Below are positions 11,157 through 25,857 of a stretch of 64,000 nt of DNA, in pieces. Each line of letters begins with the position of its first letter. Within the stretch, counting starts at the first letter, position 1. Below the pieces are notes generated by a model that had not been told where the DNA came from, did not search any database, and saw only the letters and a list, made by a program, of their open reading frames with translations. Position numbers and translations under genes: made by a program. The stretch is taken from positions 310,001 through 374,000 of the forward strand of contig NZ_WIBF01000001.1 in the NCBI RefSeq assembly GCF_009496005.1. Direction: 5' to 3'. Source of the DNA: Tritonibacter litoralis (GTDB lineage: Bacteria; Pseudomonadota; Alphaproteobacteria; Rhodobacterales; Rhodobacteraceae).

Positions 11157-12053
11157 CTCTGCTTGGGCCTGAGGTGCCAGCCAGTCGCGGAACTTTGTCA
11201 ATCCAGGATGCCGATTATTGCCACGTGCCCACATCAGGTAATAGGCCCCTCCGGTCTCAATCGCACGATCATAAAGCGCCACAAGCCGACCGGTCGCCAC
11301 ATCCTGCTCCACCAAATAATCCGGCATCAGGGCAACACCCATCCCATGCTGTGCGGCCTGGCTGATCGTCGCAAACTGATCAAACACCGCCCCATCCAAT
11401 GGCTGATCAATCGGCACACCAACAGCGGCAAACCATTCCTTCCAGGCGGTGGGACGCGTCTGAATATGCAGCAAGGGGCAGCTGGCAAGGTCCTGCGGGC
11501 CGTTCAAGTTGCGCCCCGCAAAGAAGTCTGGCGAACACACGGGCAACAATTGTTCATGGCGCAAAAGCATACCTTCACTATGGGGCCAATCCCGTGCGCG
11601 ACCGTAGTGAAGTGCTGCGTCAAAGCTCTCGGTTGCAAAGGAAAACGGTTGCAGTCGCGTCGCCATATTGATCGTCACATCCGGATGCAGCCGGGCAAAG
11701 TCGGGCAGGCGGGGCATCAACCACCGCATGCCAAAGGCCGGTAAAATTGCCAGATGCAGGGTTCCTGCCACGGGCTCCTGAACCAGATTGTGGGTCGCCT
11801 GCGCAATTGTTGTCAAAGCCTGACGGATCTCTGCCGCAAAATCCCCAGCCCGATCCGTCAGCCGCAGCTGTTTCTGACTACGATCCACCAGATCCACCCC
11901 CATTTGCGCTTCCAGCGATTGAAGCTGTCGGCTGATGGCCCCTTGGGTCAGATTAAGATCGCCGGCCGCCGCTGACGCGCTGCCCAACCGATCCAAGGCT
12001 TCAACCGCGCGCAGGGCCGCCATAGAGGGGAAATATCGTCGAGGAGCTACCAT
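11139..12053 (-). CDS. LysR-family regulator, probable GcdR (glutarate pathway)
   Basis: A 304-residue regulator of the GcvA-like LysR type. The N-terminal winged helix is clear (SMAALRAVEALDRLGSASAAAGDLNLTQGAISRQLQSLEAQMGVDLVDR), followed by the two-lobed effector-binding domain from about residue 90. The start at 12053 places YFPSMAALRA at the usual distance; longer TTG or ATG starts add 10 or 3 residues. It is divergent from glutaryl-CoA dehydrogenase 102 bases away, the arrangement in which LysR activators of glutarate and lysine catabolism (GcdR) are found. The partner is inferred from position; the effector is unknown. Confidence 0.82.
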   Translation of the reverse strand: MVAPRRYFPSMAALRAVEALDRLGSASAAAGDLNLTQGAISRQLQSLEAQMGVDLVDRSQKQLRLTDRAGDFAAEIRQALTTIAQATHNLVQEPVAGTLHLAILPAFGMRWLMPRLPDFARLHPDVTINMATRLQPFSFATESFDAALHYGRARDWPHSEGMLLRHEQLLPVCSPDFFAGRNLNGPQDLASCPLLHIQTRPTAWKEWFAAVGVPIDQPLDGAVFDQFATISQAAQHGMGVALMPDYLVEQDVATGRLVALYDRAIETGGAYYLMWARGNNRHPGLTKFRDWLAPQAQAEDPLPR

Positions 12054-12054
12054 G

Positions 12055-12071
12055 TATGACATATGCTCATA
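12055..12071. promoter_or_regulatory. Candidate LysR operator
   Basis: TATGA and TCATA form an inverted repeat separated by seven bases (CATATGC), immediately upstream of the LysR start and 85 bases before gcdH. LysR regulators usually bind short dyads of T-N11-A form in such divergent spacers. Confidence 0.45.
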
Positions 12072-12155
12072 CAAATCAGCCAAAGTCTCGTTTTTAATTG
12101 CGCCTTTGTCGGGTTACCCTTGCGACAACGTTAATTTTCCCATCGGAGCTTCCCT

Positions 12156-13379
12156 ATGCTTGACGACAAACCTACGCTGCGCGCCAAAGATGCCCCTGAT
12201 CTGGGCAAGTTCACCTGGGACGATGCCTTTCGTCTGGAGGACCAGTTAAGCGAAGAAGAGCGGATGATCGCGGCTTCTGCACGCGCCTATGCCGAGGAAA
12301 AGCTGGCCCCGCGTGTCCTGGACGCCTTTGAGGAAGAGACAACCGACCCTGCCATTTTCAAAGAGATGGGCGAGATGGGGCTGTTGGGCGTGACCCTGCC
12401 CGAAGAATATGGCGGGCTTGGCGCGGGCTACGTTGCCTATGGTCTGGTCGCACGGGAGATCGAACGGGTGGACTCCGGCTACCGCTCCATGATGTCGGTT
12501 CAAAGCTCCTTGGTGATCTATCCCATTTACGCATACGGAAGCCAGGCGCAGCGGCAGAAGTACCTTCCGAAACTGGCCAGCGGTGAATGGATCGGCTGTT
12601 TTGGCCTGACCGAACCCGACGCGGGGTCAGATCCTGCATCGATGAAGACCCGGGCCGAAAAGATCGAGGGTGGATATCGTCTGACCGGGTCGAAAATGTG
12701 GATTTCAAACGCGCCGATTGCCGATGTTTTTGTAGTTTGGGCCAAATCAGATGCGCATGGCGGTAAGATCCGTGGCTTTGTGCTCGACAAAGGCACCAAA
12801 GGTTTGAGCGCACCAAAAATCGCCAACAAAGCCTCGCTGCGCGCATCCATCACTGGCGAGATTGTCATGGACAATGTCGAAGTCGGCGAAGAGGCACTGT
12901 TGCCCAATGTACAAGGGCTGAAAGGTCCCTTTGGATGTTTGAACCGCGCGCGTTACGGGATCTCTTGGGGTACAATGGGTGCAGCAGAGGCCTGCTGGCA
13001 TTCTGCGCGCCAATATGGGTTGGACCGGATCCAATTTGGCCGTCCGCTGGCAAACACACAGATCTTCCAGCTGAAGCTTGCGAATATGCAAACCGAGATC
13101 ACCTTGGGACTGCAGGCCTCATTACGGGTCGGGCGTTTGATGGATGAGGCCAATGCAGCGCCTGAAATGATCTCATTGATCAAGCGCAACAACTGCGGCA
13201 AGGCGCTTGAGATTGCGCGCATGTCCCGCGATATGCATGGCGGCAACGGCATCAGTTATGAATTCGGGGTGATCCGCCACATGATCAACCTTGAGACGGT
13301 GAACACTTATGAGGGCACCCATGACGTGCATGCTTTGATTTTGGGTCGGGCCCAAACCGGTCTGCAAGCGTTCTATTGA
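12156..13379 (+). CDS. gcdH: Glutaryl-CoA dehydrogenase
   Basis: A 407-residue flavoprotein acyl-CoA dehydrogenase that oxidises and decarboxylates glutaryl-CoA to crotonyl-CoA in lysine, hydroxylysine and glutarate breakdown. Visible features are [21 protein letters not shown] and [21 protein letters not shown] (FAD and substrate region) and the C-terminal [21 protein letters not shown], nearly identical to the end of mitochondrial GCDH, with the catalytic base E386. The [18 protein letters not shown] segment is also specific to GCDH. The divergent LysR gene probably controls it. A hairpin follows the stop. Confidence 0.95.
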
Positions 13380-13392
13380 ACATTTTTGCAAA

Positions 13393-13424
13393 GCAGGAAT
13401 GCAAAACCGGGTTTGCGTTCCTGC
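13393..13424 (+). terminator. Hairpin after gcdH
   Basis: GCAGGAATGCAAAACC (13393-13408) pairs with the near-complement ending at 13424 (GGTTTGCGTTCCTGC), with one bulge and one mismatch. ATTTGTTAA follows, a poor T tract. It may end gcdH transcripts. The same bases also hold two copies of the TGCAAA motif repeated through this gap. Confidence 0.5.
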
Positions 13425-13919
13425 ATTTGTTAACAGCACAGCTGACAAAGTCTGGTAATTAGATCAGCCGTAAATGTTAACCCAGGTCCATGCAGCCACG
13501 AAACCGCAAAACTAGATTTGCAATACCGCAAGACACAGCAGGCATTGCAAAATCACACCCAAGAGTAGCGCGTCAGCACGTCTATTTTGCAAACTCGCAA
13601 CGAACTGTTGGCGTGTTTCGAAGTGATCAACAATGCTTCTTCAGAGATATCAACGCATGCATAGCCCGATATTCGGGTAAACTGTGCCAAATGGCACCAT
13701 ACATGCAAAACAAATCTCTACATTACGATATCATTCCGACTTTTATGCAAAACATGGAAATCACTGGCCGAACCCACCGTCAAATGCCTTGAAAGCTTTC
13801 GTTCAGGTAAACACAGACGATCCAAAACGCAATTGAAGGCGGGTTTTATGGTTAACGCCATTGCGTTCGTGCGATGCCAACCGCCTGGGATCGCCCCTCA
13901 CTTTTGCAATTATTACGCC

Positions 13920-13934
13920 TTAACAAAAGGTTAA
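13920..13934. promoter_or_regulatory. Perfect CtrA-type box
   Basis: TTAACAAAAGGTTAA matches the CtrA consensus TTAA-N7-TTAA exactly. It lies between converging genes, 27 bases beyond the response-regulator stop, where no known promoter is expected. Confidence 0.45.
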
Positions 13935-13960
13935 ACCAATTTTAAAGCATAAGACGAACC

Positions 13961-14677
13961 TCAGGACAACTCCACCTCTGCCGCCAGAATATAGCCTTCA
14001 CCGCGAATGGACTGGATCAAAGACACATCCGCACCCGTGGGATCAATCTTGCGCCTGAGGCGAGAGATATGCGCGTCCACCGCCCGATCGGTAATCGTCA
14101 CTGATTTTCCATACAGCGTATCCATAATCTCATCCCGGCTGAGCAAACGCCCCGCACGTCCAACCAACGCCGACAAAAGAGCAAATTCAGCCCCAGTCAA
14201 TGAGATGGGCCGATTGCTGTCCTCCCGCTCCAAAGTGCGTTTCGCGAGATCAAGGTGCAGGCCAGAAAACCGCGCATGAGAGTGATCTGCGGCGCTGCTG
14301 CCCTGTATGGCTGGTTCCATCCGGCGCATCACCGCCTTGATCCGCGCCAGCAACTCGCGCGGTTCATAGGGTTTGGTCAGATAATCATCCGCCCCCAGTT
14401 CAAGACCAACAATCCGGTCAAACACTTCATCCCGTGCGGTCAGCATAATCACCGGCGTCTTGGCGGTTCTTCGAATATCTTTCAGAATATCAAACCCATC
14501 GGCATCCGGCAGATTGAGATCCAGAACCAGAAGATCAACCAAATGAGGATCAAACATGGCGCGCGCCTGCGCCCCGGATGTTGCGACCTGAACCTTGAAC
14601 CCGTGTTTGTCCAAAAACCGGGACAAAAAGGCGGTTAATTGCATGTCATCGTCAACAACCAGGATTTTCTGATCCAT
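13961..14677 (-). CDS. OmpR-family response regulator
   Basis: A 238-residue regulator. The receiver domain has VVDDD near residue 9, phosphorylation site D53 in LVLDLNLPDADG, and K in YLTKPYEPRELLARI. The winged-helix effector domain (about 135-235) carries ISLTGAEFALLSALVGRAGRLLSRDEIMDTLYGKSVTITDRAVDAHISRLRRKID. It is similar in style to TorR-type regulators. It diverges from the hybrid kinase at 14745, 67 bases away, which makes the two a probable pair. Because the kinase gene leads straight into the Rieske/molybdopterin operon, this regulator is a candidate controller of that operon, by position only. Confidence 0.88.
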   Translation of the reverse strand: MDQKILVVDDDMQLTAFLSRFLDKHGFKVQVATSGAQARAMFDPHLVDLLVLDLNLPDADGFDILKDIRRTAKTPVIMLTARDEVFDRIVGLELGADDYLTKPYEPRELLARIKAVMRRMEPAIQGSSAADHSHARFSGLHLDLAKRTLEREDSNRPISLTGAEFALLSALVGRAGRLLSRDEIMDTLYGKSVTITDRAVDAHISRLRRKIDPTGADVSLIQSIRGEGYILAAEVELS

Positions 14678-14744
14678 CTCAAACCTCTGCGTTGCAGCTG
14701 CGATTACTGTTGTCGGAAAATTCCTTAAACCGCAGTGAGCGTAA

Positions 14745-17000
14745 ATGGCCCAAATGATCGCAGTCCCGAAACGATTTTATGCAATTGGAATCGCGGCATT
14801 TTTGATGATCTTGCTGTCATCGGGCCTGGGCGTCTACCTTGGAATGGAGACGCAACATAAATTTCGCGAAGTCGAAGCCAGCTGGGTGGATCACAACGGT
14901 GATGTTGGTCAAAAAGGCGTCTGGATCAGCACAATCCGCGGGCATTTGGGGTATGGCGGGATCATCCACAATTTTAAAAACTACGTCTTGCGGCGGGATC
15001 CTGCATACCTGGAAACAGCGGTACAACAGGTCACACAGTTCAACACGGTGATCGAAGAGTATCTGGCCCATAGCCAGGACCCAAATGAACGTAAGGCCCT
15101 CAGGATCTTGCAAGACACCATTGCGATTTATGACGCGAATTTTGCAGTGGCACAAAGCGGCGTGCGGGAAGGTATCAGCACGCAGGCTTTGGATCAGATG
15201 GTCAAAGTGGATGACAGCGCCGCAAAGCTAGCGCTGGCACAGCTTGAGAAAACCTGGACGGATGCGCGACTTGCCTCCACCACGCGTGTGTTTGCCGCTG
15301 TGGAAGAGGGGCGCGCGCTTATTGCGGTGGGTTTTGCCTCCGTCGCGGGCCTAGTGCTGGCGTCGATTTCCATTGGCACCATTATATATCTGATGTTTCA
15401 CGATATGGGCCACACGTTAAACCGCTTGTCCGATGAATTGGACGCACGACGCGCCGCCGAAGCCTCAGAACATCGCTTGGCCAGTGTGGTGGAACAAAGC
15501 CCCGCGACCATCATTATCACGGATCGCAACGCCAAAATTCTTTATGCTAACAAGCGGTTCTTGGAGGTGACCGGCTGGAGCAGTGCTGAGATCTTTGGAA
15601 AATCGCCAAAGTTCCTGCAGTCCGGCGATACCAGCGATGACACCTACCTCGACCTGCGCCAGGCCCTTGAGGAGGGGCGCGATTGGCATGGAACGTTTCG
15701 TAATCGCAAAAAGGACGGCGGGATCTATTGGACCGACACTTTGATCTTGCCCCTGCGCGGCCCCGATGGCGAGGTGCACAGTTTTGTCGGCATCGGAGAA
15801 GACATCACCGAACGCAGACAGGCGCGGGAACAGGTGGCGCGGGCTCAAAAGCTTGAGGCGGTGGGGCTGCTGGCGGGTGGCATCGCGCATGATTTCAACA
15901 ATGTCCTGACCACCATCATCGGGGCAGCACATTTGGCGGCGCTCGACGCCCCCGAGGGCAGCGATTTGGCAGGTGAGATCGATCAAATCGAGATTGCAGC
16001 CAAACGTGCCCAAAGCCTGGTGCGCGGATTGTTGACCTTTGCGCGGCGCGAACCCGGTCAGTCCCAACCCGTTGATCTGGATGTCATCACGCAGGAAGTG
16101 CAGCGCTTGCTGCGGGCTTCGGTTCCGCCGACACTGCGGATTGAGGTTGATCAGACGGACGGTCCGCATGGCGTTTTGGCCGATCCAACCCATCTGCATC
16201 AGATTGTGATGAACATTGTTCGAAACGCAGCCGAAGCGATTGGCGTTCATGAGGGCGTTGTGCGTCTTACGGCCCATCGCGTAACCGAAACACCAGATGG
16301 GTTGAGACCGCTCAAAGCAGGATGGATGCGGTTGACCATTCAAGACAACGGCCCCGGCATGTCGGCAGAGGTGCGCAGGCGTCTGTTTGACCCATTTTTC
16401 ACCACAAAACCCCTTGGGAAAGGGTCCGGGCTTGGGCTGGTGGTGGTCGCAGGCCTGGTGGAAGAGATGGGAGGTCGCGTGCTGGTGGACAGCGTGCAAG
16501 GGCAGGGCGCACGTTTTGATATTTTCTTGCCCGCGACGGATCTGACAACGGTTCCGGACAGCGGCTCAGAGGCGCAACTGCCTCGTGGCAAGGAGCGGAT
16601 CCTGGTGGTGGATGATGAGACCGAAATTGCGGCGACCTGGCGGCGCCTGTTGATGCGGCTGGGCTACCGAGTGGAGGCCTATACCTCGCCCGTGATTGCG
16701 CTGGAGAAATATGCAGCGGATCCCGGACGGTTTGATGCGGTGATCACGGATATGGTGATGCCGGACATGTCCGGCGCAACCCTTGCGACACAAATCCGGC
16801 GACTGCGGCCGGGGCTGCCGGTGATCATCTGCACGGGATACTCCCCCTCTGCCATCAACGTGGAAGGCCCAGCGCCGGTGGTGCTGGACAAACCCGTGGA
16901 TCCGGCCCGTCTTGCCCAGCAATTGCGCAGCGTGTTGGACCCGCCGGTATCACAGGCCAAGCCGCCGTCACAAACCGTAACACTTCAGAACGTTTTGTAA
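14745..17000 (+). CDS. Hybrid sensor histidine kinase (PAS-HisKA-HATPase-REC)
   Basis: A 751-residue membrane kinase. It has a first helix near residues 10-30, a periplasmic helical region (about 31-185) containing the segment GYGGIIHNFKNYVLRRD, and a second helix at about 190-215. A PAS domain (about 240-360, ending GIGEDITERRQ) is followed by HisKA with phospho-acceptor H382 in GGIAHDFNNVLTT, HATPase (DNGPGMSAEV, GKGSGLGLVVVAGL) and a C-terminal receiver with D669 in ITDMVMP. The periplasmic input domain suggests sensing of an extracellular compound; the ligand is unknown. It runs in the same direction as the next operon, 183 bases ahead of it, so it may sense that operon's substrate. Confidence 0.87.
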   Translation: MAQMIAVPKRFYAIGIAAFLMILLSSGLGVYLGMETQHKFREVEASWVDHNGDVGQKGVWISTIRGHLGYGGIIHNFKNYVLRRDPAYLETAVQQVTQFNTVIEEYLAHSQDPNERKALRILQDTIAIYDANFAVAQSGVREGISTQALDQMVKVDDSAAKLALAQLEKTWTDARLASTTRVFAAVEEGRALIAVGFASVAGLVLASISIGTIIYLMFHDMGHTLNRLSDELDARRAAEASEHRLASVVEQSPATIIITDRNAKILYANKRFLEVTGWSSAEIFGKSPKFLQSGDTSDDTYLDLRQALEEGRDWHGTFRNRKKDGGIYWTDTLILPLRGPDGEVHSFVGIGEDITERRQAREQVARAQKLEAVGLLAGGIAHDFNNVLTTIIGAAHLAALDAPEGSDLAGEIDQIEIAAKRAQSLVRGLLTFARREPGQSQPVDLDVITQEVQRLLRASVPPTLRIEVDQTDGPHGVLADPTHLHQIVMNIVRNAAEAIGVHEGVVRLTAHRVTETPDGLRPLKAGWMRLTIQDNGPGMSAEVRRRLFDPFFTTKPLGKGSGLGLVVVAGLVEEMGGRVLVDSVQGQGARFDIFLPATDLTTVPDSGSEAQLPRGKERILVVDDETEIAATWRRLLMRLGYRVEAYTSPVIALEKYAADPGRFDAVITDMVMPDMSGATLATQIRRLRPGLPVIICTGYSPSAINVEGPAPVVLDKPVDPARLAQQLRSVLDPPVSQAKPPSQTVTLQNVL

Positions 17001-17126
17001 GCCTGCCCGCAACACTTGGCGTTTCACGATTGGATAAACCGATTGCGTGGAACAACCCGGCCACTCGCCTGCGGCCGGGACGCAAGCCAGGGTGCAGCAT
17101 GCACCGGCCAGCTTTGTCTGACCCTT

Positions 17127-17174
17127 CTGTCCAGTCCCCGCAGGCACACAGCATTCCGCTGATCGGCTGGACAG
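17127..17174 (+). promoter_or_regulatory. Inverted repeat reaching the ribosome-binding site of the Rieske/Mo operon
   Basis: CTGTCCAG (17127-17134) is complementary to CTGGACAG (17167-17174), which runs into the AGGAGG ribosome-binding site of the first operon gene. Pairing across 32 bases could cover that site. A second short dyad, GTGCAGCATGCAC, lies at 17092-17104. Both are candidates only. Confidence 0.3.
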
Positions 17175-17183
17175 GAGGTCAAA

Positions 17184-18257
17184 ATGATCCGAACACTCAC
17201 CTTGATGGGCGCTTTGTTGGCGGGCACGGCCGCCATCGCGCAGGACACGGTGCCCATTCCCCCGATCGATGTCGACGCTGCGCGGGCTGAACTGGGCAAA
17301 CGGATGTTTTACGACACCCGCCTGTCAGGCGATGCAAGCCTTGCCTGCGCCAGCTGTCACGACCCGGCGCGCGCCTTTACCGACGGCGAAGCGCTGTCCG
17401 CGGCTTATACCGGCGCTGCGCATTTCCGCAACGCCCCAACCCTGGCCAACGTCGGCTACCGCGGCGCGTGGATGCATGACGGTCGTCTGGGCACCAATTT
17501 GAACGATGTCGCGCGTGAGATGATCACCGAGACCTATCTGATGAATATGGACATGCGCATCATGCAGGAACGCATGAAGCAAGACCCGGTTTATGTGGAG
17601 ATGTTCAAGGCGGCTGGCATGTCCGAACCCTCAAACGGCGGGGCTCGCAATGCGCTGATGGACTTTATGAAAACCATCGTGTCCCGCGGCGCTCCGGTGG
17701 AAACCGGTGACTTGTCCGAGGCCGCCCAGCGCGGGCAGGTTGTGTTTGAAGGCAAAGGCCAGTGCGCATCCTGCCACACCGGCGCGCGCTATACCGATGA
17801 TCAGGTCCATAACACCGGCGTTCCTGGCAATGCGGAGATCTGGGCAGATCCCGAACGCCATTCCGCCTTTGTCACCTATGCCAAGTTCATGGGTGTCGAG
17901 AACTATATGAACCTGCGCGAAGATCTGGGTGCCTTTATCCGCACCCATGAAGACGACAGCAAACGCACCTTCCTGACCCCGACCTTGCGCGAGCTGACAT
18001 ATACAGCGCCTTACATGCACAACGGTGTGTTCGAAACACTGGAAGAGGTTGTGGCCTTCTACAACCAAGGTGGCGGTGATGATCCCCTGAAAGACGACCG
18101 CCTGAAGCCCCTGAACCTGAGCGATCAGGAACAGTCTGATCTGGTGGAATACCTCAAAGCCATGTCGGGCGAGAGCTTCGACATCGATGCCTATGTCTGG
18201 CGCGAAGACGATTTTGACTACGTGCTGATCAATGACTGGCTGAACGCAACCAACTGA
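17184..18257 (+). CDS. Di-heme cytochrome c peroxidase family protein, IdrP-like (first)
   Basis: A 357-residue exported protein with a Sec signal peptide (about residues 1-19). Two c-type heme sites are visible, CASCH at 55-59 and CASCH at 194-198, as in bacterial di-heme peroxidases and MauG. A YMHNG motif at 277-281 offers a distal methionine. Family members reduce hydrogen peroxide in the periplasm. It opens a four-gene operon (gaps of 11, 16 and 12 bases) with a second di-heme peroxidase, a Rieske protein and a molybdopterin enzyme, the gene set of the iodate reductase IdrAB-P1P2. There the peroxidases are thought to remove peroxide or reactive iodine intermediates. AGGAGG precedes the ATG. 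Confidence 0.85.
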   Translation: MIRTLTLMGALLAGTAAIAQDTVPIPPIDVDAARAELGKRMFYDTRLSGDASLACASCHDPARAFTDGEALSAAYTGAAHFRNAPTLANVGYRGAWMHDGRLGTNLNDVAREMITETYLMNMDMRIMQERMKQDPVYVEMFKAAGMSEPSNGGARNALMDFMKTIVSRGAPVETGDLSEAAQRGQVVFEGKGQCASCHTGARYTDDQVHNTGVPGNAEIWADPERHSAFVTYAKFMGVENYMNLREDLGAFIRTHEDDSKRTFLTPTLRELTYTAPYMHNGVFETLEEVVAFYNQGGGDDPLKDDRLKPLNLSDQEQSDLVEYLKAMSGESFDIDAYVWREDDFDYVLINDWLNATN

Positions 18258-18268
18258 GGAGAGGGACC

Positions 18269-19399
18269 ATGATGAAAACAACAACCGCAATCCTCGTCTG
18301 CCTGACCGCTTTGGCCAGCCCAGCGCTGGGAGAGGCACCACGTCCCGCAGGGCTTGCTCCCTTGGGCGAGGCACCGATCCCCGGATCCAACCCTCAAAGC
18401 GACGCCAAGGTTGAACTGGGCAAACTGCTGTTCTTTGATCCGATCCTGTCCGGCAACTACGGCATGCCCTGTTCCTCGTGCCACCTGCCGGATGCAGGAT
18501 GGGCCGTGCAGGCACCGATCTCGTTTGGTTATCCGGGCACAACCCACTGGCGCAACAGCCAGACCATTGTGAATTCGGCCTATTACAGCAAACTGTTCTG
18601 GGCTGGATCTTCTGGCAACCTTGAACACCAGGCGCGTTCTGCCGCCCGTGGTGGTGTTGCGGGCAATGGCGAAGACGACATGATGGAAAGCCGCCTGGCC
18701 TTTGTGCCGGAATACCGGGAGCGCTTTGCGGATGTCTTTGGCGATGACTGGCCCAATGTGCGCCACGCCTATGATGCGATTGCCGCCTTTGAGCGTACGA
18801 TCAACCAGACCGACACGCCATTTGACGCCTATATGCGTGGTGATGACAGCGCTTTGAACGCACAAGAGATCCGCGGGCTTGAGCTGTTTGCTGGCAAAGC
18901 GGGCTGTATCTCGTGCCATGACGGGCCGATGCTCACCAACGAGAAATACTACAACCTTGGTGTGCCTGCTTATGACGGCTGGCAAGAGGATGAGCTGGCG
19001 CAGATTACATTCCGGTTTGAGCTTTATGCCAAAGGCTCCACCGAAGAGATGTATCGCACCACCAAGGATGATCCCGGCCTTTATTTCCGGACCAAGGAGA
19101 AGTCCGACAAGGGCAAGTTCCGCGTACCGTCGCTGCGCTACACCAAATACACCTATCCCTACATGCACAACGGCATGTTGGAGACGCTCGAAGATGTTGT
19201 GGAGTTCTACAACCAGGGCGGCGGTGTAAACGAGTTCGCCGCGAATAAATCCGATCAGATCCAGCCCCTTGGCCTGAGCGCGGATGAGAAAGCCGATCTT
19301 GTGGCTTTCCTCCTGACCCTGTCGGGCGAGGAAATCCTGATCGAAGAACCTGACCTTCCAACCATGGAGCCGCTGCCATCCCCTGCGGCCTTCAATTGA
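18269..19399 (+). CDS. Di-heme cytochrome c peroxidase family protein, IdrP-like (second)
   Basis: A 376-residue exported protein with a signal peptide (about 1-21). Heme sites are CSSCH at 68-72 and CISCH at 213-217, and YMHNG recurs near residue 298. It is clearly related to the preceding gene but diverged and not a recent duplicate: it has longer loops (for example LEHQARSAARGG) and a different C-terminus. Which of the two corresponds to IdrP1 and which to IdrP2 cannot be decided by eye. The first two codons are both ATG; GGAGAGGG lies just upstream. It is probably a periplasmic partner of the Rieske/molybdopterin enzyme encoded next. Confidence 0.85.
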   Translation: MMKTTTAILVCLTALASPALGEAPRPAGLAPLGEAPIPGSNPQSDAKVELGKLLFFDPILSGNYGMPCSSCHLPDAGWAVQAPISFGYPGTTHWRNSQTIVNSAYYSKLFWAGSSGNLEHQARSAARGGVAGNGEDDMMESRLAFVPEYRERFADVFGDDWPNVRHAYDAIAAFERTINQTDTPFDAYMRGDDSALNAQEIRGLELFAGKAGCISCHDGPMLTNEKYYNLGVPAYDGWQEDELAQITFRFELYAKGSTEEMYRTTKDDPGLYFRTKEKSDKGKFRVPSLRYTKYTYPYMHNGMLETLEDVVEFYNQGGGVNEFAANKSDQIQPLGLSADEKADLVAFLLTLSGEEILIEEPDLPTMEPLPSPAAFN

Positions 19400-19415
19400 G
19401 ACGAGGAGTGACAAG

Positions 19416-20003
19416 ATGAAAGATCTTGATCCGCACATCGCCGCCGCCGTCAATGGCGAGAACGGCGAAGCCCAAAAGGCGGGCACGCGCAAATGTCTGA
19501 TGAACCGGCGTCAGTTTCTGCTGACGTCGGGGCTGACCACCACCGTGGTGATGGTGGGTATTCCGGGCCTCTCTGAGGCTGAGACACCCGCCGTGGTCTC
19601 CACCTATCCCCGCAAGCTGATTGGCAAGCTGTCTGAGTTGAAAACCGACGAGCCCTTGTCCTTTGAATACCCGGACGAGGGGCAATACGCCGAAAGCATT
19701 CTGGTCAAGCTTGGCACCAAAGTGGGCGGCGGCATTGGCCCCGATGCGGATGTGGTGGCCTTTAACTATACCTGCACCCACCAAGGGGGGCCGTTGCAGG
19801 GCACCTATAAGGCCGCTGACAAGGCGCTGGGTCCGTGCCCCTTGCACCTGACCACTTTTGATCTGACCCGCCACGGGATCTTCATCTCGGGTCAGGCCTA
19901 TCAATCCCTGCCACAGGTCCTGCTCGAAGTGGACGGCGACGACATCTACGCCGTCGGCATGTTCGGGTTGATCTATGGCCGTTTCGACAATCTTCAGGGT
20001 TAA
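19416..20003 (+). CDS. idrB: Rieske [2Fe-2S] small subunit, IdrB/AioB type
   Basis: A 195-residue periplasmic electron-transfer subunit. A twin-arginine signal (NRRQFLLTSG, residues 30-39) precedes a hydrophobic stretch, so it is folded before export and probably carries the large subunit with it. The Rieske ligands are C120 and H122 (CTHQGG) and C141 and H144 (CPLH), with 18 residues between H122 and C141. The extra cysteine pair that forms a disulfide in many Rieske proteins is missing, as in some arsenite oxidases. AioB would be the alternative name; IdrB is preferred because of the two peroxidase genes upstream. Confidence 0.78.
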   Translation: MKDLDPHIAAAVNGENGEAQKAGTRKCLMNRRQFLLTSGLTTTVVMVGIPGLSEAETPAVVSTYPRKLIGKLSELKTDEPLSFEYPDEGQYAESILVKLGTKVGGGIGPDADVVAFNYTCTHQGGPLQGTYKAADKALGPCPLHLTTFDLTRHGIFISGQAYQSLPQVLLEVDGDDIYAVGMFGLIYGRFDNLQG

Positions 20004-20015
20004 GGAGACAAAGAC

Positions 20016-22697
20016 ATGTCCACCCCATACTATGTCCCCGAGGAATTCGTCCCCCTGCCGCCGCCAGACGCAGAGGTGATCCCTACAGCTTGTGATTACT
20101 GCATCGTGGCCTGCGGCTACAAAGTCTACCGATGGCCCGTTGCAGGCGGCAAAAATGGTGGCCCGGCCGCCGATCAAAACGCCTTTGGTGAGGATTTCCC
20201 GGTCAGCCCGCTGGGCCCCTGGATTGCCCCCACGCAGCACAATATCGTCCTGCACAACGGCGCGCCGCACCATGTGGTGATCATCCCCGACAAGGACACA
20301 GAATTTGTGAACTATTCGGGCAACAGCTCGATCCGGGGTGGGGCGATTGCGCAAAAGGTCTATAACCCGCAGACCCCAACCCGCGACCGCCTGAAATCGC
20401 CGATGATCCGGATGTTTGGCGTGCTGATGCCGGTGACATGGGATTTTGCTCTGGAAATAGCAGCCGAGGTTGGCAAACACGTGTTGAAAACACATGGCAC
20501 CAATGCCTATGGCGTTAAAACCTTTTCCTATGGCTATATGGAAAACACATATGCCATCACAAAGTATGCGCTTGGCAATATCCGCACCGCGAACTTTACC
20601 TTCCACGACACGCCGTCAGACGTAACCTCGACGCCGGGTTTCCGGGACGCGGGGTTCGATAACTTTGGCCCCTCATATGACGACTGGGCAGAGGCCGACA
20701 CATTGCTAATGTGCGGCACCGATCCTTATGAGACCAAGACCATCTTGTTCACCGACTATATCATGCCGGCAATCCAGGGCGGGCAAAAGGCGATCTTTAT
20801 GATCCCGCGCCGGTCTGCAGGCACCGCCTTTGCCGAAGCCAATGGCGGCTTGGTTCTGGATATCCAGCCGGGCACCGACCTTCCGGTGGTTCTGGCCATT
20901 GCCCGTGTCATCGTGGAAAACGGCTGGCAGGACAAAGAATGGATCAAGAACTGGGTGAACAACAAATGGGAAAGCTCATCAGGCTTTGGCCAGGGCACCC
21001 GCAACACCCCATGGCAGTGGCGCACCACCTGGGGCAAATTCCAGACCAAAGGCTTTGACGATTGGGTCGACTGGCTGATGGCGCAGGACTATGCAGTGCC
21101 CGAGAAAGCCGCTGAAATCGCGCAGATCGACGTACAGAAGATCTATACCGCCGCCGAATGGATGGCCAAACCCCGCGAAGATGGCAGCCGTCCCAAGACC
21201 TCGATCATGATCGAAAAGGGGTTTTACTGGTCCAACAACACCGGCAACACCCAAGCGATTTCCGCCTTGGGCATTACAGTTGGGGCCGGTGGCCGCCCCG
21301 GTCAGGTCATTGGCCGTGCCGGCGGTCACCAGCGTGGAGGCCTGCGCGGCGGTGGCTATCCCCGCAACAAATCGCCCGAGAAACTGCCTGGCCGTCGCCG
21401 TCGCGCAATGGATACAGACCGGTATTTTATGGCCGGTCACACCCGGTTGGCGCATGTGATCGGCACCACTTGGGTGCAGGCAATGTGCGGCAGCCAGTCC
21501 TTGCAGGCCAAATTCGAAGAGCTGACCGTGCGCAACCCGCATCAGGTCGGATCCTTTGACAAGCAAGAGATCATCGACACGCTAAAAGCGCGCGCGGACA
21601 GCGGTGGCACGGTGGTGATCAACCAGGACATCTATCTGGTCGACCCAATTGGCGCACGGTTTGCCGATATCATCTTCCCGGCTTCTGGTTGGGGTGAGGA
21701 CACATTTACCCGCGCCAATGGTGAACGGCGCTTGCGGGTTTACCCCAAGTTCTATGATGCGCCGGGTGAAGCAAAACCCGATTGGTGGATCATTGCGCAG
21801 CTGTCCAAGAAGATGGGCTTTGAAGGTTTTGATTGGCAGAACTCCAACGATGTGATCGAGGAGGGGGCCCGCCATTCCCGTGGCTCGCGCAAGGACTTTA
21901 ACATGGTTCTTGTGGCCGCCAAACGCGAAGGCAAAACCCTGCACCAAAAGCTGGGCGAGTTCGGCACCAATGGGATCCAAGGTCCCGTTCTGATGCGCGA
22001 AGATGGCACATTGGAGGGCACCAAACGGCTGCATGACACCACGCGCAAACTGCCGGATACCGGGCCGGGTGGGGCCAATATGTTCAACAAGAAGCTGACC
22101 CACTTCAACTCACAGACCGGGAAATGCAACATTCAGAAAGCGCCTTGGGATCTGTTCAGCTCTTATTGGGAATGGCTGAAACCGCGTGAGAGCGAGGACG
22201 AGCTGTGGATCACCTCGGGCCGGATCAATGAACGCTGGCAGTCCGGCTATGATGACCGTCGCCGCCCGTACATCGTGCAGCGCTGGCCGGAAAACTGGAT
22301 CGAGCTGCACCCGGAGTTTGCCGAAAAACACGGCATCGAAAGCGGTGACTATGTGCAGGTCTATTCCGAGCGGATCCCAGTTCAAAAAGACACCATCGTG
22401 GGCGTCGAAGGCGATGACTTTGACTTCGCCAAGCTGATGGAACACGGCCATATCGAGCTGACCAAAGCGGCGATCACCGCTGTGGCGATTGTCACCCCCG
22501 CTGTAAAGGAGAACATGGGCTACATGGACTTCCTGCACACCGCCCAACCCGCCAATGCTTTGGCTGGTCGCGTGGTGGACTGGATCAGCGGCAACTACAA
22601 CTACAAGATGGGTGTCGGCAAAGTACGTAAAATGGGTGAAAGCCCTTATAAAACACAGATGCGCTCTATGTCCTTTGCCCGTCGCGACATCGCTTGA
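20016..22697 (+). CDS. idrA: Molybdopterin oxidoreductase, probable iodate reductase large subunit (AioA-like)
   Basis: An 893-residue member of the DMSO reductase family, related to arsenite oxidase AioA. The cluster motif is C26-x2-C29-x3-C33-x70-S104, the [3Fe-4S] arrangement shared by AioA and IdrA. It has no export signal and would leave the cell with the Tat-borne Rieske subunit. Of the AioA arsenite-binding residues, the histidine (H197) and the R-x3-H pair (R434, H438 in GRAGGHQ) are present, but the AioA glutamate aligns with S205 and the surrounding segment differs. No aioX, aioS or aioR genes are nearby. Iodate reduction is inferred from gene context; arsenite oxidation or another oxyanion remains possible. 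Confidence 0.72.
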   Translation: MSTPYYVPEEFVPLPPPDAEVIPTACDYCIVACGYKVYRWPVAGGKNGGPAADQNAFGEDFPVSPLGPWIAPTQHNIVLHNGAPHHVVIIPDKDTEFVNYSGNSSIRGGAIAQKVYNPQTPTRDRLKSPMIRMFGVLMPVTWDFALEIAAEVGKHVLKTHGTNAYGVKTFSYGYMENTYAITKYALGNIRTANFTFHDTPSDVTSTPGFRDAGFDNFGPSYDDWAEADTLLMCGTDPYETKTILFTDYIMPAIQGGQKAIFMIPRRSAGTAFAEANGGLVLDIQPGTDLPVVLAIARVIVENGWQDKEWIKNWVNNKWESSSGFGQGTRNTPWQWRTTWGKFQTKGFDDWVDWLMAQDYAVPEKAAEIAQIDVQKIYTAAEWMAKPREDGSRPKTSIMIEKGFYWSNNTGNTQAISALGITVGAGGRPGQVIGRAGGHQRGGLRGGGYPRNKSPEKLPGRRRRAMDTDRYFMAGHTRLAHVIGTTWVQAMCGSQSLQAKFEELTVRNPHQVGSFDKQEIIDTLKARADSGGTVVINQDIYLVDPIGARFADIIFPASGWGEDTFTRANGERRLRVYPKFYDAPGEAKPDWWIIAQLSKKMGFEGFDWQNSNDVIEEGARHSRGSRKDFNMVLVAAKREGKTLHQKLGEFGTNGIQGPVLMREDGTLEGTKRLHDTTRKLPDTGPGGANMFNKKLTHFNSQTGKCNIQKAPWDLFSSYWEWLKPRESEDELWITSGRINERWQSGYDDRRRPYIVQRWPENWIELHPEFAEKHGIESGDYVQVYSERIPVQKDTIVGVEGDDFDFAKLMEHGHIELTKAAITAVAIVTPAVKENMGYMDFLHTAQPANALAGRVVDWISGNYNYKMGVGKVRKMGESPYKTQMRSMSFARRDIA

Positions 22698-22844
22698 TCG
22701 GCCTTGTGGTGCGCTCCTTGCCTGAAACGGGCAGGGCGCGCATCGCCCCCCTGGCTCCGGCGGTCTCAACCTCCCCAGACCTGTGCCGGGGCCAGTTTTC
22801 AAAACACGAATTGAACATTTCACTCATCCTCAAAGAGGCCCACA

Positions 22845-24962
22845 ATGCTGCAACACGTGTCTCCCCAACGCGGCGAAAACTTTGATCCCGTCCCAACCCT
22901 GTTGATGCATTTTGCGGATGGAAATGATGTCATCCGCACCGACGCCGTGCAGGCCATGGCACAAGTTGCCCCAGGTGACGACAGGGTGCGTCAGGCCCTG
23001 CTGGGGGCGCTGCTGGACCAGGACCCTGATGTGCGCAGCGATGCAATGGAAGCCTTGCAGGATTTTGCCCAACCCGAAGACTGTGACACCATCCGCAACA
23101 GTTTAACCGGCGACCCTGTGCGAGAGGTCAAGCTGGCCGCCGTGGTCCTGCTGGCCATGCTCAAGGATCACGCCTCCATTCCGCTGTTTCGCAAGCTGAC
23201 CCTGTCGCGCGCCGAAGACGAGGTTGCCTGGGAAGATGAGGCGGGCCTGTGGGACGAATGGCTGGAGGTGCAGGCGGCTGTGATCCGCGCGCTCGGGCAT
23301 TTGGGTGCCTCTGACGCAATCGCGGATATGCTGGCCGCCCGTGATGATGAATTTGGCCAGAATCTGGATCAACCGGTGTTTGAGGCCTTGTCACAAATGG
23401 GTCAGGACGGTCTGATCTGGCTGTTGGCTATTGTCCAGACGGAAACCGGGCTGCCGCGCAAACGCGCGTTGGAAATCTTGGAACGCCTCGATCCGATGGC
23501 CCTGGTGGATCAGATCGACGCCCTATGGCAGGATAAAAACCCCGAGGTTCGGGCATTGATCCTGAACCATATGCCGGTTCACGACCCGCGTTTGGCGCAG
23601 GCCGCAACACAAGACCCCTCGGAACTGGTGCGCCAGGCTGCGTTGCGTTTGGCGGCGGATCCAGAGCTTGCAATCGAAGCTTTGGCAGATCCCTCCACAA
23701 AAGTGCAGGCCGCCGCGCTGGATCTGGTGGACCGGCCGCAAAACGCCGATTTTCACGCAACGCTTTTGGCGAATATGGTCGCATGGGCCCGCACGGATGA
23801 TGGTCCATTGGTCAGCGCAGTTGCCCGGAACTGGGTCCGTTTGGCGCCTACAACACCGTTTGATTTGTTGATGGAGATTGCGCGCGCAGCAGATCGACCA
23901 TTGGAGGCCCGCGTTCTGGCAGTATCTGCCTTGGCCGATTTGCAGGACGAGGCTGCGACCGAGCGTTTGATTTCACTGCTGTCCAACCCATCCCAACAAG
24001 TGCGCGCGGCAGCTGGCCGCCACCTTGCCGCGCGGGGCAGGGACGGGGATGAGGACGCGGTTGAGGCACTGGCCGCCGCCGCTGAAGCCGTATTGCTGCC
24101 CCCGCAGGAGACCCCCGACCCTGTGGCGGTGACAGCCGAAGCTCCACGGCTGAAAGTGTCGGACAAAGGGGATATTGTGGCAACATCCCCAAGTGAGACA
24201 GCGGTTTCGACACTGGAAGCAATCCAGATCAATCGAACCGCATCCCCAAGAGAGACCAAAGCTGAAGGCAAACCATCCCCCGAACGCAAACAGGGCAAAA
24301 ACCGCAAACGCCAGGCCATCGAAGGTCCCACAGAGATCGCTCCGGATCTGGCCCGGATTGTTTTGACACTGTTCCAGGACCTGCGCGACCCACGCAGCGG
24401 CGCAGCCGTTCTGGCAATGACGCATGCGGGGGACGACACACTGCGATATGGGGCCTATCGGGCACTGGTCGCGCGTCTGGATGATTTGCGCATCACCGAG
24501 GCGGACGCTGTCCGGCTTCTGGCGGGGCTCAAAGACCGCAATGCAAACATTCGCGCATGTTGTGCGGAATACGCGGCGCAAGCGCCTGACACACACCCCG
24601 CGCTCTGCGCAGCGCTTGGGAATTGCCACGACGACACCGATGCCATGGTGCGCGTTGCGGCCGCTCGCGTGTTGACCCAGAAAGAGAGCGTCTTGTCCGC
24701 CTTGCGCGACGATGACGCCCGCATTCGGGCCCGTGTTCTGGACCGGATCCTGTCCACTGAGGACGTGGTTTCGCCTGAGGAGGCTTTTGAGACCCTCCTT
24801 GCAGGGGATCGCATTGTCACGTTGCGCCAAGGGGCTGCGCAATCAGACGACTTTAAACAGCGCATTTTGGAAAAACTGGCCGCGCATGACCTGACCCCGC
24901 GCACGGCTCACGTGTTGCTTCAATCTTTGAACACCAAACATGGGGATGGGGCAGCGGTCTGA
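22845..24962 (+). CDS. HEAT-repeat protein
   Basis: A 705-residue protein made almost wholly of HEAT-type helical repeats: DDRVRQALLGALLDQDPDVRSDAMEAL and NPEVRALILNHMPVHDPRLAQAA in the first half, and DEAATERLISLLSNPSQQVRAAAGRHLA and DRNANIRACCAEYAAQA in the second. A polar, probably disordered linker lies around residues 415-500. No signal peptide or membrane helix is visible, so it is cytoplasmic and likely a protein-protein scaffold. AAAGAGG precedes the ATG. It lies 147 bases after idrA on the same strand. An assembly or maturation role for the molybdoenzyme is a guess from position. Confidence 0.8.
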   Translation: MLQHVSPQRGENFDPVPTLLMHFADGNDVIRTDAVQAMAQVAPGDDRVRQALLGALLDQDPDVRSDAMEALQDFAQPEDCDTIRNSLTGDPVREVKLAAVVLLAMLKDHASIPLFRKLTLSRAEDEVAWEDEAGLWDEWLEVQAAVIRALGHLGASDAIADMLAARDDEFGQNLDQPVFEALSQMGQDGLIWLLAIVQTETGLPRKRALEILERLDPMALVDQIDALWQDKNPEVRALILNHMPVHDPRLAQAATQDPSELVRQAALRLAADPELAIEALADPSTKVQAAALDLVDRPQNADFHATLLANMVAWARTDDGPLVSAVARNWVRLAPTTPFDLLMEIARAADRPLEARVLAVSALADLQDEAATERLISLLSNPSQQVRAAAGRHLAARGRDGDEDAVEALAAAAEAVLLPPQETPDPVAVTAEAPRLKVSDKGDIVATSPSETAVSTLEAIQINRTASPRETKAEGKPSPERKQGKNRKRQAIEGPTEIAPDLARIVLTLFQDLRDPRSGAAVLAMTHAGDDTLRYGAYRALVARLDDLRITEADAVRLLAGLKDRNANIRACCAEYAAQAPDTHPALCAALGNCHDDTDAMVRVAAARVLTQKESVLSALRDDDARIRARVLDRILSTEDVVSPEEAFETLLAGDRIVTLRQGAAQSDDFKQRILEKLAAHDLTPRTAHVLLQSLNTKHGDGAAV

Positions 24963-25101
24963 CTTTCAGGCCAAAGCCTAATGGTGTTTTGACCTGGTGA
25001 CGCCTGATGTGGGCTGAGGGAACACCGGTTAGCAGAGATTGATGCATCGGGGTTCTGCGAAACATCGCGGAACCCCATTTTAGCGCACCCAGGCCTCAGG
25101 C

Positions 25102-25407
25102 TCAAACCGGCACATGATCCAGAAACCGACGTGTCGGCGTGTCTGTAACCATGCCCGCCAAAACCGTAAAATCGCCCCGATCCTGCCGCCAGGCGTTGTA
25201 GCCCTCATAATCCGCCCGGGTGCGCCAGGTTTCGATCATTATTATCCGTGCGGGATCATCCTGGTCTTGTTTCACCTGAACACCCAAGTTCCCCGGACGG
25301 CGCCGGGTTTGAGGCAGTAAACCCTGGCACATCAGCTCAAACTCATCGAGCTTATCTGCCTTCAAGTTGAGTTCGACGATAACGGTAATGCTCATCGGCG
25401 CAGCCAT
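25102..25407 (-). CDS. Antibiotic biosynthesis monooxygenase (ABM) domain protein
   Basis: A 101-residue single-domain protein with the ferredoxin-like ABM fold: a SITVIVELNLKADKLDEFELMCQGLLPQTRRRPGNLGVQVKQD strand-helix half and an IIMIETWRTRADYEGYNAWR half with the typical E-W pair. Relatives include the quinol monooxygenase YgiN and small heme-degrading enzymes, but most are uncharacterised. The ATG four codons downstream (MSITVIV) is an equally likely start. It stands alone between the HEAT gene and a tRNA, with no sign of an operon. Confidence 0.78.
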   Translation of the reverse strand: MAAPMSITVIVELNLKADKLDEFELMCQGLLPQTRRRPGNLGVQVKQDQDDPARIIMIETWRTRADYEGYNAWRQDRGDFTVLAGMVTDTPTRRFLDHVPV

Positions 25408-25600
25408 GCTCGAATGAAAGGTCTTATGGGTTTAAGGTAACTATAAAAAATATCAGGCATTCTCATCCTCTTAGGTGGATTGAACTTTGGAGTTCATTCT
25501 GGCTAGGAGGGTGAGGTCCGGCAAGGAAACCTGCGATTACTTTAAGTAGAATTATTGAGTTCATTAACAACTTAACGTGAAAGTTGTGTTTTTCATTCTT

Positions 25601-25641
25601 GGGATTTCCATTTTCGTCAATCTATCGAAAATGGAAATCCC
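25601..25641. repeat. Perfect 16-base inverted repeat
   Basis: GGGATTTCCATTTTCG (25601-25616) is exactly complementary to 25626-25641, with a nine-base spacer. No T tract follows on either strand, so it is not a normal terminator. It could be an RNA hairpin, an operator or the remnant of a small mobile repeat. No second copy was noticed in the window. Confidence 0.7.
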
Positions 25642-25688
25642 AACAAAACTAGGGTATTGATTTCGACTTTACTCTTTAAAATCAAAGA

Positions 25689-25722
25689 CAAAAACACCTG
25701 TGACGACCGACTCACACGGTGT
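25689..25722 (-). terminator. Terminator of tRNA-Ser
   Basis: Read on the minus strand, ACACC and TGTGA (separated by one bulged base) pair with TCACA and GGTGT, then TTTTTG follows. It lies 46 bases beyond the 3' end of the tRNA. Confidence 0.7.
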
Positions 25723-25767
25723 GGTCGTTGGTAGATTTAAATACTCAAAACAAGTGATGAGGGATAA

Positions 25768-25857
25768 TGGCGGAGAGACAGGGATTCGAACCCTGGGTCC
25801 CCGTGAAGGGACAACGGTTTTCGAGACCGCCCCGTTCGACCACTCCGGCACCTCTCC
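25768..25857 (-). tRNA. tRNA-Ser (anticodon CGA)
   Basis: Read on the minus strand, the acceptor stem GGAGAGG pairs with TCTCTCC (one G-U pair), followed by discriminator G and an encoded CCA (25768-25770). The D arm GCCGGAGTGGTCGAACGG, the anticodon loop CTCGAAA with CGA, a long variable arm and the T arm GGGTTCGAATCCC are all present. The long variable arm and about 90-base length fit a serine tRNA reading UCG. Confidence 0.95.

Follow-up and report, generated by a model that had tools for sequence, protein, structure and literature searches.

Does the four-gene cluster at 17184-22697 of a Tritonibacter litoralis contig encode an iodate reductase, or the arsenite oxidase that automated annotation would make of it, and do genes outside these four belong to the system? 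The DNA analyzed here is a stretch of 64,000 nucleotides (NZ_WIBF01000001.1, positions 310,001-374,000 of the forward strand; hereafter the window). A preliminary description had proposed an iodate reductase of the Idr type with four components: two di-heme peroxidases, a Rieske protein, and a molybdoenzyme. All four genes were found, the large subunit falls among Idr-type proteins, and the locus very probably encodes an Idr-type iodate reductase. Beyond the coordinates first described, the cluster takes in a two-component system on its upstream side (13961-17000) and, downstream, a HEAT-repeat gene (22845-24962); both had been overlooked.

A Probable Idr-Type Enzyme and Its Alternatives

The list of open reading frames (ORFs) places idrP2, idrP1, idrB, and idrA at 17184-22697, all on the plus strand, with intergenic gaps of 11, 16, and 12 bases, in agreement with the 11-16 bases given earlier. 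The ORFs at 17184-18257 and 18269-19399 encode di-heme peroxidase-like proteins (Pfam CCP_MauG, 4e-35 and 1e-40, respectively), each with two CxxCH motifs, starting at residues 55 and 194 in the former and at 68 and 213 in the latter. They were named idrP2 and idrP1 because of the published gene order (PMC10989891). idrB (19416-20003) encodes the Rieske subunit (Pfam Rieske), which carries a twin-arginine translocation (Tat)-type motif, RRQFL, at residue 31 and the motif CxHx18CxxH. The molybdenum (Mo) catalytic subunit is encoded by idrA (20016-22697); it has the Pfam domains Rieske_3, Molybdopterin, and Molydop_binding and a 3Fe-4S motif (CDYCIVAC, residues 26-33), and inspection of N-termini and hydropathy revealed no signal of its own. 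The two distinct peroxidases and the Tat-motif Rieske protein had thus been recognized correctly. Regarding the proposed motif C-x2-C-x3-C-x70-S, Ser104 does sit at x70, but Ser105, at x71, is the serine that matches AioA in the alignment and is invariant among relatives. Chance is not an issue, since none of the Pfam family E-values exceeds 5e-5 and related loci show the arrangement again.

The gene order (P-P-B-A) had been called reversed. This was wrong: idrP2, idrP1, idrB, idrA is published as a characteristic order, found in Pseudomonas SCT, Denitromonas IR-12, and Ca. Methylomirabilis iodofontis (PMC10989891), idrP1P2 always precede idrAB according to PMC8801600, and P-P-B-A was found in every locus examined that has complete upstream DNA. 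The gene order is therefore not new, and neither is an iodate reductase in a roseobacter, since idr-bearing roseobacters reducing iodate are already in print (PMC11445184). Iodate reduction is reviewed in PMC10746228.

A tree of the large subunit against AioA had been suggested as a check. Our tree had 41 rows from a selection of loci, 27 Idr-type (window included) and 14 AioA (including NT-26), without ArxA and without the published reference IdrA sequences (SCT, IR-12, DN11, R. azorensis). IdrA fell outside the AioA clade, with all 14 AioA proteins on one side of a 100/100 branch and the 27 Idr-type proteins on the other. The window IdrA groups at 91-92% identity with those of Pelagimonas varians, Thalassovita taeanensis (91%; row L056, the same genome as locus L071), and an Aliiroseovarius metagenome-assembled genome (L055, the same as L070). 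T. taeanensis is the present name of Litorimicrobium taeanense, which is listed among organisms carrying iodate-reduction genes (PMC8692401).

As anticipated, automated annotation would say arsenite oxidase, because both subunits score above the cut-offs of the NCBIfam arsenite-oxidase models (IdrA, 427 bits vs. 359 for TIGR02693; IdrB, 124 bits vs. 95.65 for TIGR02694). These models also catch Idr proteins, and Idr enzymes are still labeled arsenite oxidase by automated models. In one survey with the arsenite-oxidase model, the window scored 423 bits and four other Idr-type proteins 404-437, against 1072-1310 for nine AioA proteins. The annotation would be right if the cluster were an arsenite oxidase variant in which the di-heme proteins are incidental. 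The curated cut-offs passed by both subunits agree with this, and the nearest solved structures of the window IdrA and IdrB are AioA and AioB. AioBA (NT-26 and others) likewise combines Rieske and Mo/3Fe-4S subunits in the order B-A, and in NT-26 sensor and regulator genes adjoin it, as in the window. The AioA substrate-site residues, which we take to be His195, Glu203, Arg419, and His423, point both ways: three of the four are conserved throughout the Idr and AioA rows, but the glutamate, present in 14 of 14 AioA proteins, is replaced in 27 of 27 Idr rows (by Ser in 20, Ala in 1, and Asp in 6 deep-clade rows; Ser205 in the window). IdrA also stands in its separate 100/100 clade, is only 27-31% identical to AioA, and belongs to a cluster with two peroxidase genes, whereas none was found in four annotated Aio loci. 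With this evidence an arsenite oxidase is highly improbable.

The enzyme could instead reduce other or broader oxyanions (bromate, chlorate, selenate), with iodate as a side substrate. Few Idr systems have been tested for substrates, and the site of the lost glutamate holds Ser in the window clade and Asp in the deep clade, so specificity could differ by clade. Against this, three idr-bearing marine Alphaproteobacteria, which may belong to other clades, reduce iodate, and 0.1 μM iodate is enough to induce idr in one of them (PMC11445184). We regard such an enzyme as improbable, and the tree, the active-site residue, and the synteny together argue for an Idr-type iodate reductase, not an AioA.

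The window shares its four components and their order with the Idr systems of Pseudomonas sp. SCT, Denitromonas sp. IR-12, Azoarcus sp. DN11, Aromatoleum TC-10, and aerobic marine Alphaproteobacteria, as well as the motifs listed in PMC10149662 (CX2CX3C...S, CXHX18CX2H, the IdrB Tat motif, and two CX2CH per peroxidase). Uneven distribution and insertion are common to both. Idr systems are further characterized by a Sec leader on each IdrP protein and the absence of one on IdrA, a feature for which the analysis of the window covered N-termini and hydropathy. The window differs in the added HEAT gene, in its two-component system, which pairs a hybrid kinase with an OmpR-type regulator and is not of the atoS/atoC type, and in lacking an adjacent cytochrome c or moaA gene. 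Azonexus-type IdrA, used as a proxy for the confirmed clade (the SCT, IR-12, DN11, and R. azorensis sequences were not compared), is about 49% identical to that of the window. IdrP1 and IdrP2 share the CCP_MauG domain and two CxxCH motifs with bacterial di-heme peroxidases, MbnH, and MauG. The nearest solved structure of IdrP1 is 1nml, a di-haem cytochrome c peroxidase, followed by other cytochrome c peroxidases, and that of IdrP2 is 6e1c (Di-heme enzyme). Unlike MauG and MbnH, they occur as a pair 5' of idrB, and both fall under the NCBIfam cut-offs for these two proteins.

In a catalytic scheme borrowed from published models of other Idr systems, IdrB, with its Tat signal and Rieske center, would carry IdrA (Mo, 3Fe-4S) into the periplasm. 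A soluble cytochrome c or a cupredoxin would supply IdrAB with electrons for the reduction of iodate, probably to hypoiodous acid, which would go on to iodide, and IdrP1 and IdrP2 would clear peroxide or other oxidants arising on the way. In R. azorensis, both iodate and static growth raise idr transcription, that of idrA from 0.1 μM, and the strains of that study show no anaerobic growth on iodate (PMC11445184). By analogy with what has been proposed for other marine strains, Idr in an aerobic host is probably an electron sink used when oxygen is low.

A Fifth Gene Downstream of idrA

The gene 3' of idrA (22845-24962, plus strand) encodes a HEAT-repeat protein of 705 amino acids (aa) (Pfam HEAT_2). 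It follows idrA after 147 bases, in which no terminator-like site was found on the plus strand. Among the best 80 of 505 relatives from a scan of genome contigs, 78 loci have a HEAT homologue downstream of idrA; in the remaining two (L115 and L142) the contig ends 246 and 2 bases past the idrA match. By mechanical start calls, 77 of the 80 loci have an ORF of at least 100 aa that begins no more than 300 bases from the idrA stop; in five of them (L081, L091, L093, L143, and L145) there is a four-base overlap with the stop. The ORF 3' of idrA is shorter in L101 (479 aa).

We also surveyed 394 genomes of the family, of which 22 are idrA-positive (E ≤1e-100). The HEAT profile matched 66 genomes at E ≤1e-5, 17 of them over most or all of its length (E ≤2e-139) and the other 49 partially, at 1e-13 or weaker. 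Full-length matches occurred in 17/22 idrA-positive genomes vs. 0/372 others (Fisher p = 1e-25, uncorrected for kinship). The five idrA-positive genomes without one are G112, in which idrA is cut by a contig end, G173, G190, and G389 of the deep clade (50-52% IdrA identity), and G208, which has a C-terminal idrA remnant. In the last (L068, 8643-9842), the C-terminal half of a deep-clade idrA, at 80% to L065, has no idrB or idrP match near it in an 18-kb stretch, and may be a decaying remnant or a break. No HEAT homologue was found beside idr in the plasmid loci of Vibrio, Azonexus, and Thiothrix or in G423.

Three minor observations concern these loci. Idr-type genes lie on large plasmids or secondary replicons in Vibrio sp. 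THAF190c, Azonexus hydrophilus, and Thiothrix subterranea (L163-L165). The A. hydrophilus gene carries the annotation arsenate reductase (azurin). The HEAT match at G320:C10:42486-44579 (L187) crosses one in-frame TGA, which could mean a shortened protein or a sequencing error.

By inspection, the HEAT protein has no leader, and its one weakly hydrophobic stretch (97-115) lies inside repeat helices. An alignment of 18 sequences gave 26 invariant columns, including Trp129, Trp136, Trp139, and Gln143. The predicted model (predicted local distance difference test, pLDDT, 85.4) consists of two helical-repeat lobes and, between them, a disordered linker that includes a short conserved helix (456-465). 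Foldseek returned only general HEAT-type scaffolds (best, 2.7e-7). The protein diverges much faster than IdrA (22-51% vs. 76-92% identity).

IdrA, apparently without a signal of its own, should mature in the cytoplasm before export with IdrB, and the HEAT gene is tied to the enzyme genes. For these reasons the likeliest role of the HEAT protein in this alphaproteobacterial branch is that of a cytoplasmic scaffold for IdrAB assembly or export, a tentative assignment that we put at slightly under even odds. It could also be a regulatory or signaling scaffold, for instance for the kinase described below. The rapid divergence relative to IdrA fits such a role, and so does the fold, given that HEAT repeats are general scaffolds and the search found nothing else. 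However, the gene keeps its place 3' of idrA whether the locus is of the two-component kind or of the FNR type with no kinase found, which links it to the enzyme genes and not to one regulator; we hold the regulatory role to be rather unlikely. The cytoplasmic helper tied to one molybdoenzyme is familiar from the TorD/NarJ-type chaperones, and an assembly scaffold would possibly do the same job. It differs from them in its HEAT-repeat fold, seen by profile and in the model, and no TorD/NarJ family appeared in the Pfam or NCBIfam results for the window.

We found no mention of the HEAT gene in the text of idr papers (figures, supplements, and Yamazaki et al., 2020 were outside the search); the gene has gone unremarked so far and is new as far as the literature search reaches. 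If it is required, idrA alone would be an insufficient marker in Alphaproteobacteria, and the four named genes expressed elsewhere may fail.

Exchange of Regulators and Promoter Sites

Upstream of idrP2 lie an OmpR-family response regulator (13961-14677, minus strand; Pfam Response_reg and Trans_reg_C) and a membrane hybrid histidine kinase (14745-17000, plus strand; Pfam PAS, HisKA, HATPase_c, and receiver) with hydrophobic segments at 5-23 and 192-210. Enough upstream DNA for a regulator test was present in 62 of the 80 loci. The pair stood directly upstream of idr in 16, the kinase upstream and the regulator downstream in 12 (all Ruegeria), and 34 had neither arrangement by this test, including L141 and L144 with a regulator/kinase pair about 7 kb upstream of idrA. 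The pair is also directly upstream in L094, which was set aside for its short upstream DNA, and is present in all three deep-clade Rhodobacteraceae loci. The kinase sensor region was matched at E ≤1e-60 in 15/22 idrA-positive genomes vs. 0/372 others; kinase and idrA are on different contigs in G368 and G262. Weaker matches (E ≤1e-10) occurred in 19 further genomes, the best (4.4e-38) in an idrA-negative genome. A second, weaker match lies elsewhere in the genome of the window (G000:C52:165419-166408). One stretch of the sensor region, GYGGIIHNFKNYVLR in the window, is nearly invariant, and the predicted model of the region is an all-helical bundle. The fold search with this model gave no match below 0.001; the best, at 0.014, were helical sensor domains, and NarQ fragments among the weak matches were not used.

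Of the 80 loci, 22 (from Pseudovibrio, Roseibium/Labrenzia, and Pelagibius, among others) have a Crp/FNR-family gene just upstream of idrP2; L100 is the one locus in which Pfam verified the gene and its divergent orientation was seen. TTGAT-N4-ATCAA, with up to two mismatches, occurs within 200 bases of idrP2 in 20/20 FNR-type loci (L106 and L117 left out), exactly in 5, with one mismatch in 12, and with two in 3. It was present in 1/17 two-component loci, window included (Fisher 1e-9 between the two groups; 14 loci with neither regulator are not in the comparison). The separation is incomplete, as weak boxes (1-2 mismatches) occur in 11/12 Ruegeria loci, which have the kinase. TCACA repeats with 10- or 11-base spacing showed the opposite distribution, in 12/20 two-component loci vs. 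9/46 others with up to one mismatch and in 8/20 vs. 1/46 without mismatch. This count is partly circular, since the motif was spotted by eye in some loci later scored, and three deep-clade loci were scanned over 340 bases and the others over 300. The candidate regulator site in the window is GTCACAAACCGTAACA (16967-16982, plus strand), a repeat of 10-base period within the 3' end of the kinase gene. Promoter and terminator scans gave no excess over shuffled sequence.

In the confirmed iodate-respirer clade, a two-component system proposed to sense iodate, a c551-like cytochrome, and moaA often adjoin idr (PMC8801600), and atoC/atoS lie upstream of idr in Azoarcus DN11 (PMC10149662). Besides these two systems, no regulators were found in the available text of the idr literature. 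Across the loci, regulator and promoter site thus change together while the enzyme genes and the HEAT gene stay, which is new as far as the literature search reaches. In the window, the likeliest switch for idr transcription is the adjacent hybrid kinase and OmpR-type regulator, which would sense iodate or its products, a proposal that we put at about even odds; many relatives have an FNR-like regulator instead. Such an exchange predicts which strains respond to iodate and which mainly to oxygen.

A wider proposal is that alphaproteobacterial iodate reductase needs a dedicated HEAT assembly factor outside the TorD/NarJ type and a clade-specific iodate-sensing kinase, swapped in evolution for an FNR-type oxygen switch along with the promoter site. 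Taken whole, it is doubtful. Separately, several points weigh against the overall reading of the locus as an Idr-type iodate reductase with a HEAT assembly factor and an iodate-responsive two-component system. The confirmed iodate respirers, as of PMC8801600, are all in one small clade, which by gene content (two-component system, cytochrome c, and moaA) resembles the Azonexus locus L164. The L164 IdrA is just 49% identical to that of the window, and its locus has no HEAT gene; the best-characterized Idr enzymes are thus probably in a clade of only about 49% identity to ours. The predicted mass of the IdrA of R. azorensis is 99.4 kDa (PMC11445184). By mechanically chosen start codons, three deep-clade Rhodobacteraceae gave 99.17-99.41 kDa and the window clade 99.68-100.5 (window, 99.89); because its mass is nearer the deep clade, the R. 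azorensis experiment may not cover the window clade. Predicted masses also rule out R. azorensis as the host: IdrA, FdhF, SecA, and IF-2 come to 99.89, 100.96, 100.51, and 89.34 kDa in the genome of the window, against published values of 99.4, 101.3, 99.9, and 89.1 kDa. Among the 22 idrA-positive family genomes, none agreed with the R. azorensis SecA to within 0.06 kDa, two (G190 and G262) agreed for IF-2, and G036 yielded no IF-2 match; FdhF was computed for the genome of the window alone. The kinase pair beside idr is a minority arrangement (16/62), the cupredoxin, MoeA, MoaA, and DUF2478 genes seen beside many relatives are missing from the window, and the near-empty insertion site described below is shown by one sister genome only, with flanks far apart in two siblings.

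The Insertion and Its Neighborhood

Compared by blastn with the sister genome G017, the window aligned up to 13435 and again from 25763, and G017 has about 985 other bases in place of the 12.3-kb segment (13436-25762). A single genome among the 18 of the genus carries full-length idrA. Because of this distribution and the insertion relative to G017, the idr cluster appears to have been horizontally acquired, and the conserved four-gene locus is described as moving among lineages (PMC8692401). Five bases separate the right end of the insertion from a tRNA-Ser(cga) gene (25768-25857, minus strand; ARAGORN), whose 3' end faces it, and the same tRNA gene is at the junction in G017, G014, and G001. 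In G001 and G014 the flanks share a contig, yet about 16 and 23 kb separate them, and no empty site is shown. No direct repeat of at least 11 bases was found between the tRNA end and 12001-17200 as a candidate att site, and no integrase was recognized among the ORFs scanned for families (smaller ORFs were outside the scan).

A tRNA gene beside idr is not general. Any tRNA was found in 7 of the 63 loci scanned, and only in L074 is it less than 1 kb from the HEAT gene; tRNA adjacency was therefore rejected as a rule for idr clusters. In L074 (Oricola cellulosilytica), the idr cluster lies about 0.5 kb from tRNA-Ser(cga) (15421-15507), and 3.3 kb beyond it an acyl-CoA dehydrogenase gene (18798-20009) is 79% identical to the flank gene of the window. 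The two loci perhaps share an insertion region.

A small ABM-domain monooxygenase-like gene (25102-25407, minus strand; Pfam ABM) also lies within the insertion. No homologue was matched near idrA in the 97 loci searched, and the gene is probably a passenger. Genes for a cupredoxin, MoeA, MoaA, or DUF2478 are near the cluster in many relatives; a search out to 13 kb from the window idrA found none. In Roseibium album (L100, 2091-6864), MoeA, MoaA, a plastocyanin/azurin-like protein, DUF2478, and a Crp/FNR regulator are encoded upstream of idr, and the cupredoxin there may be the electron donor to IdrAB.

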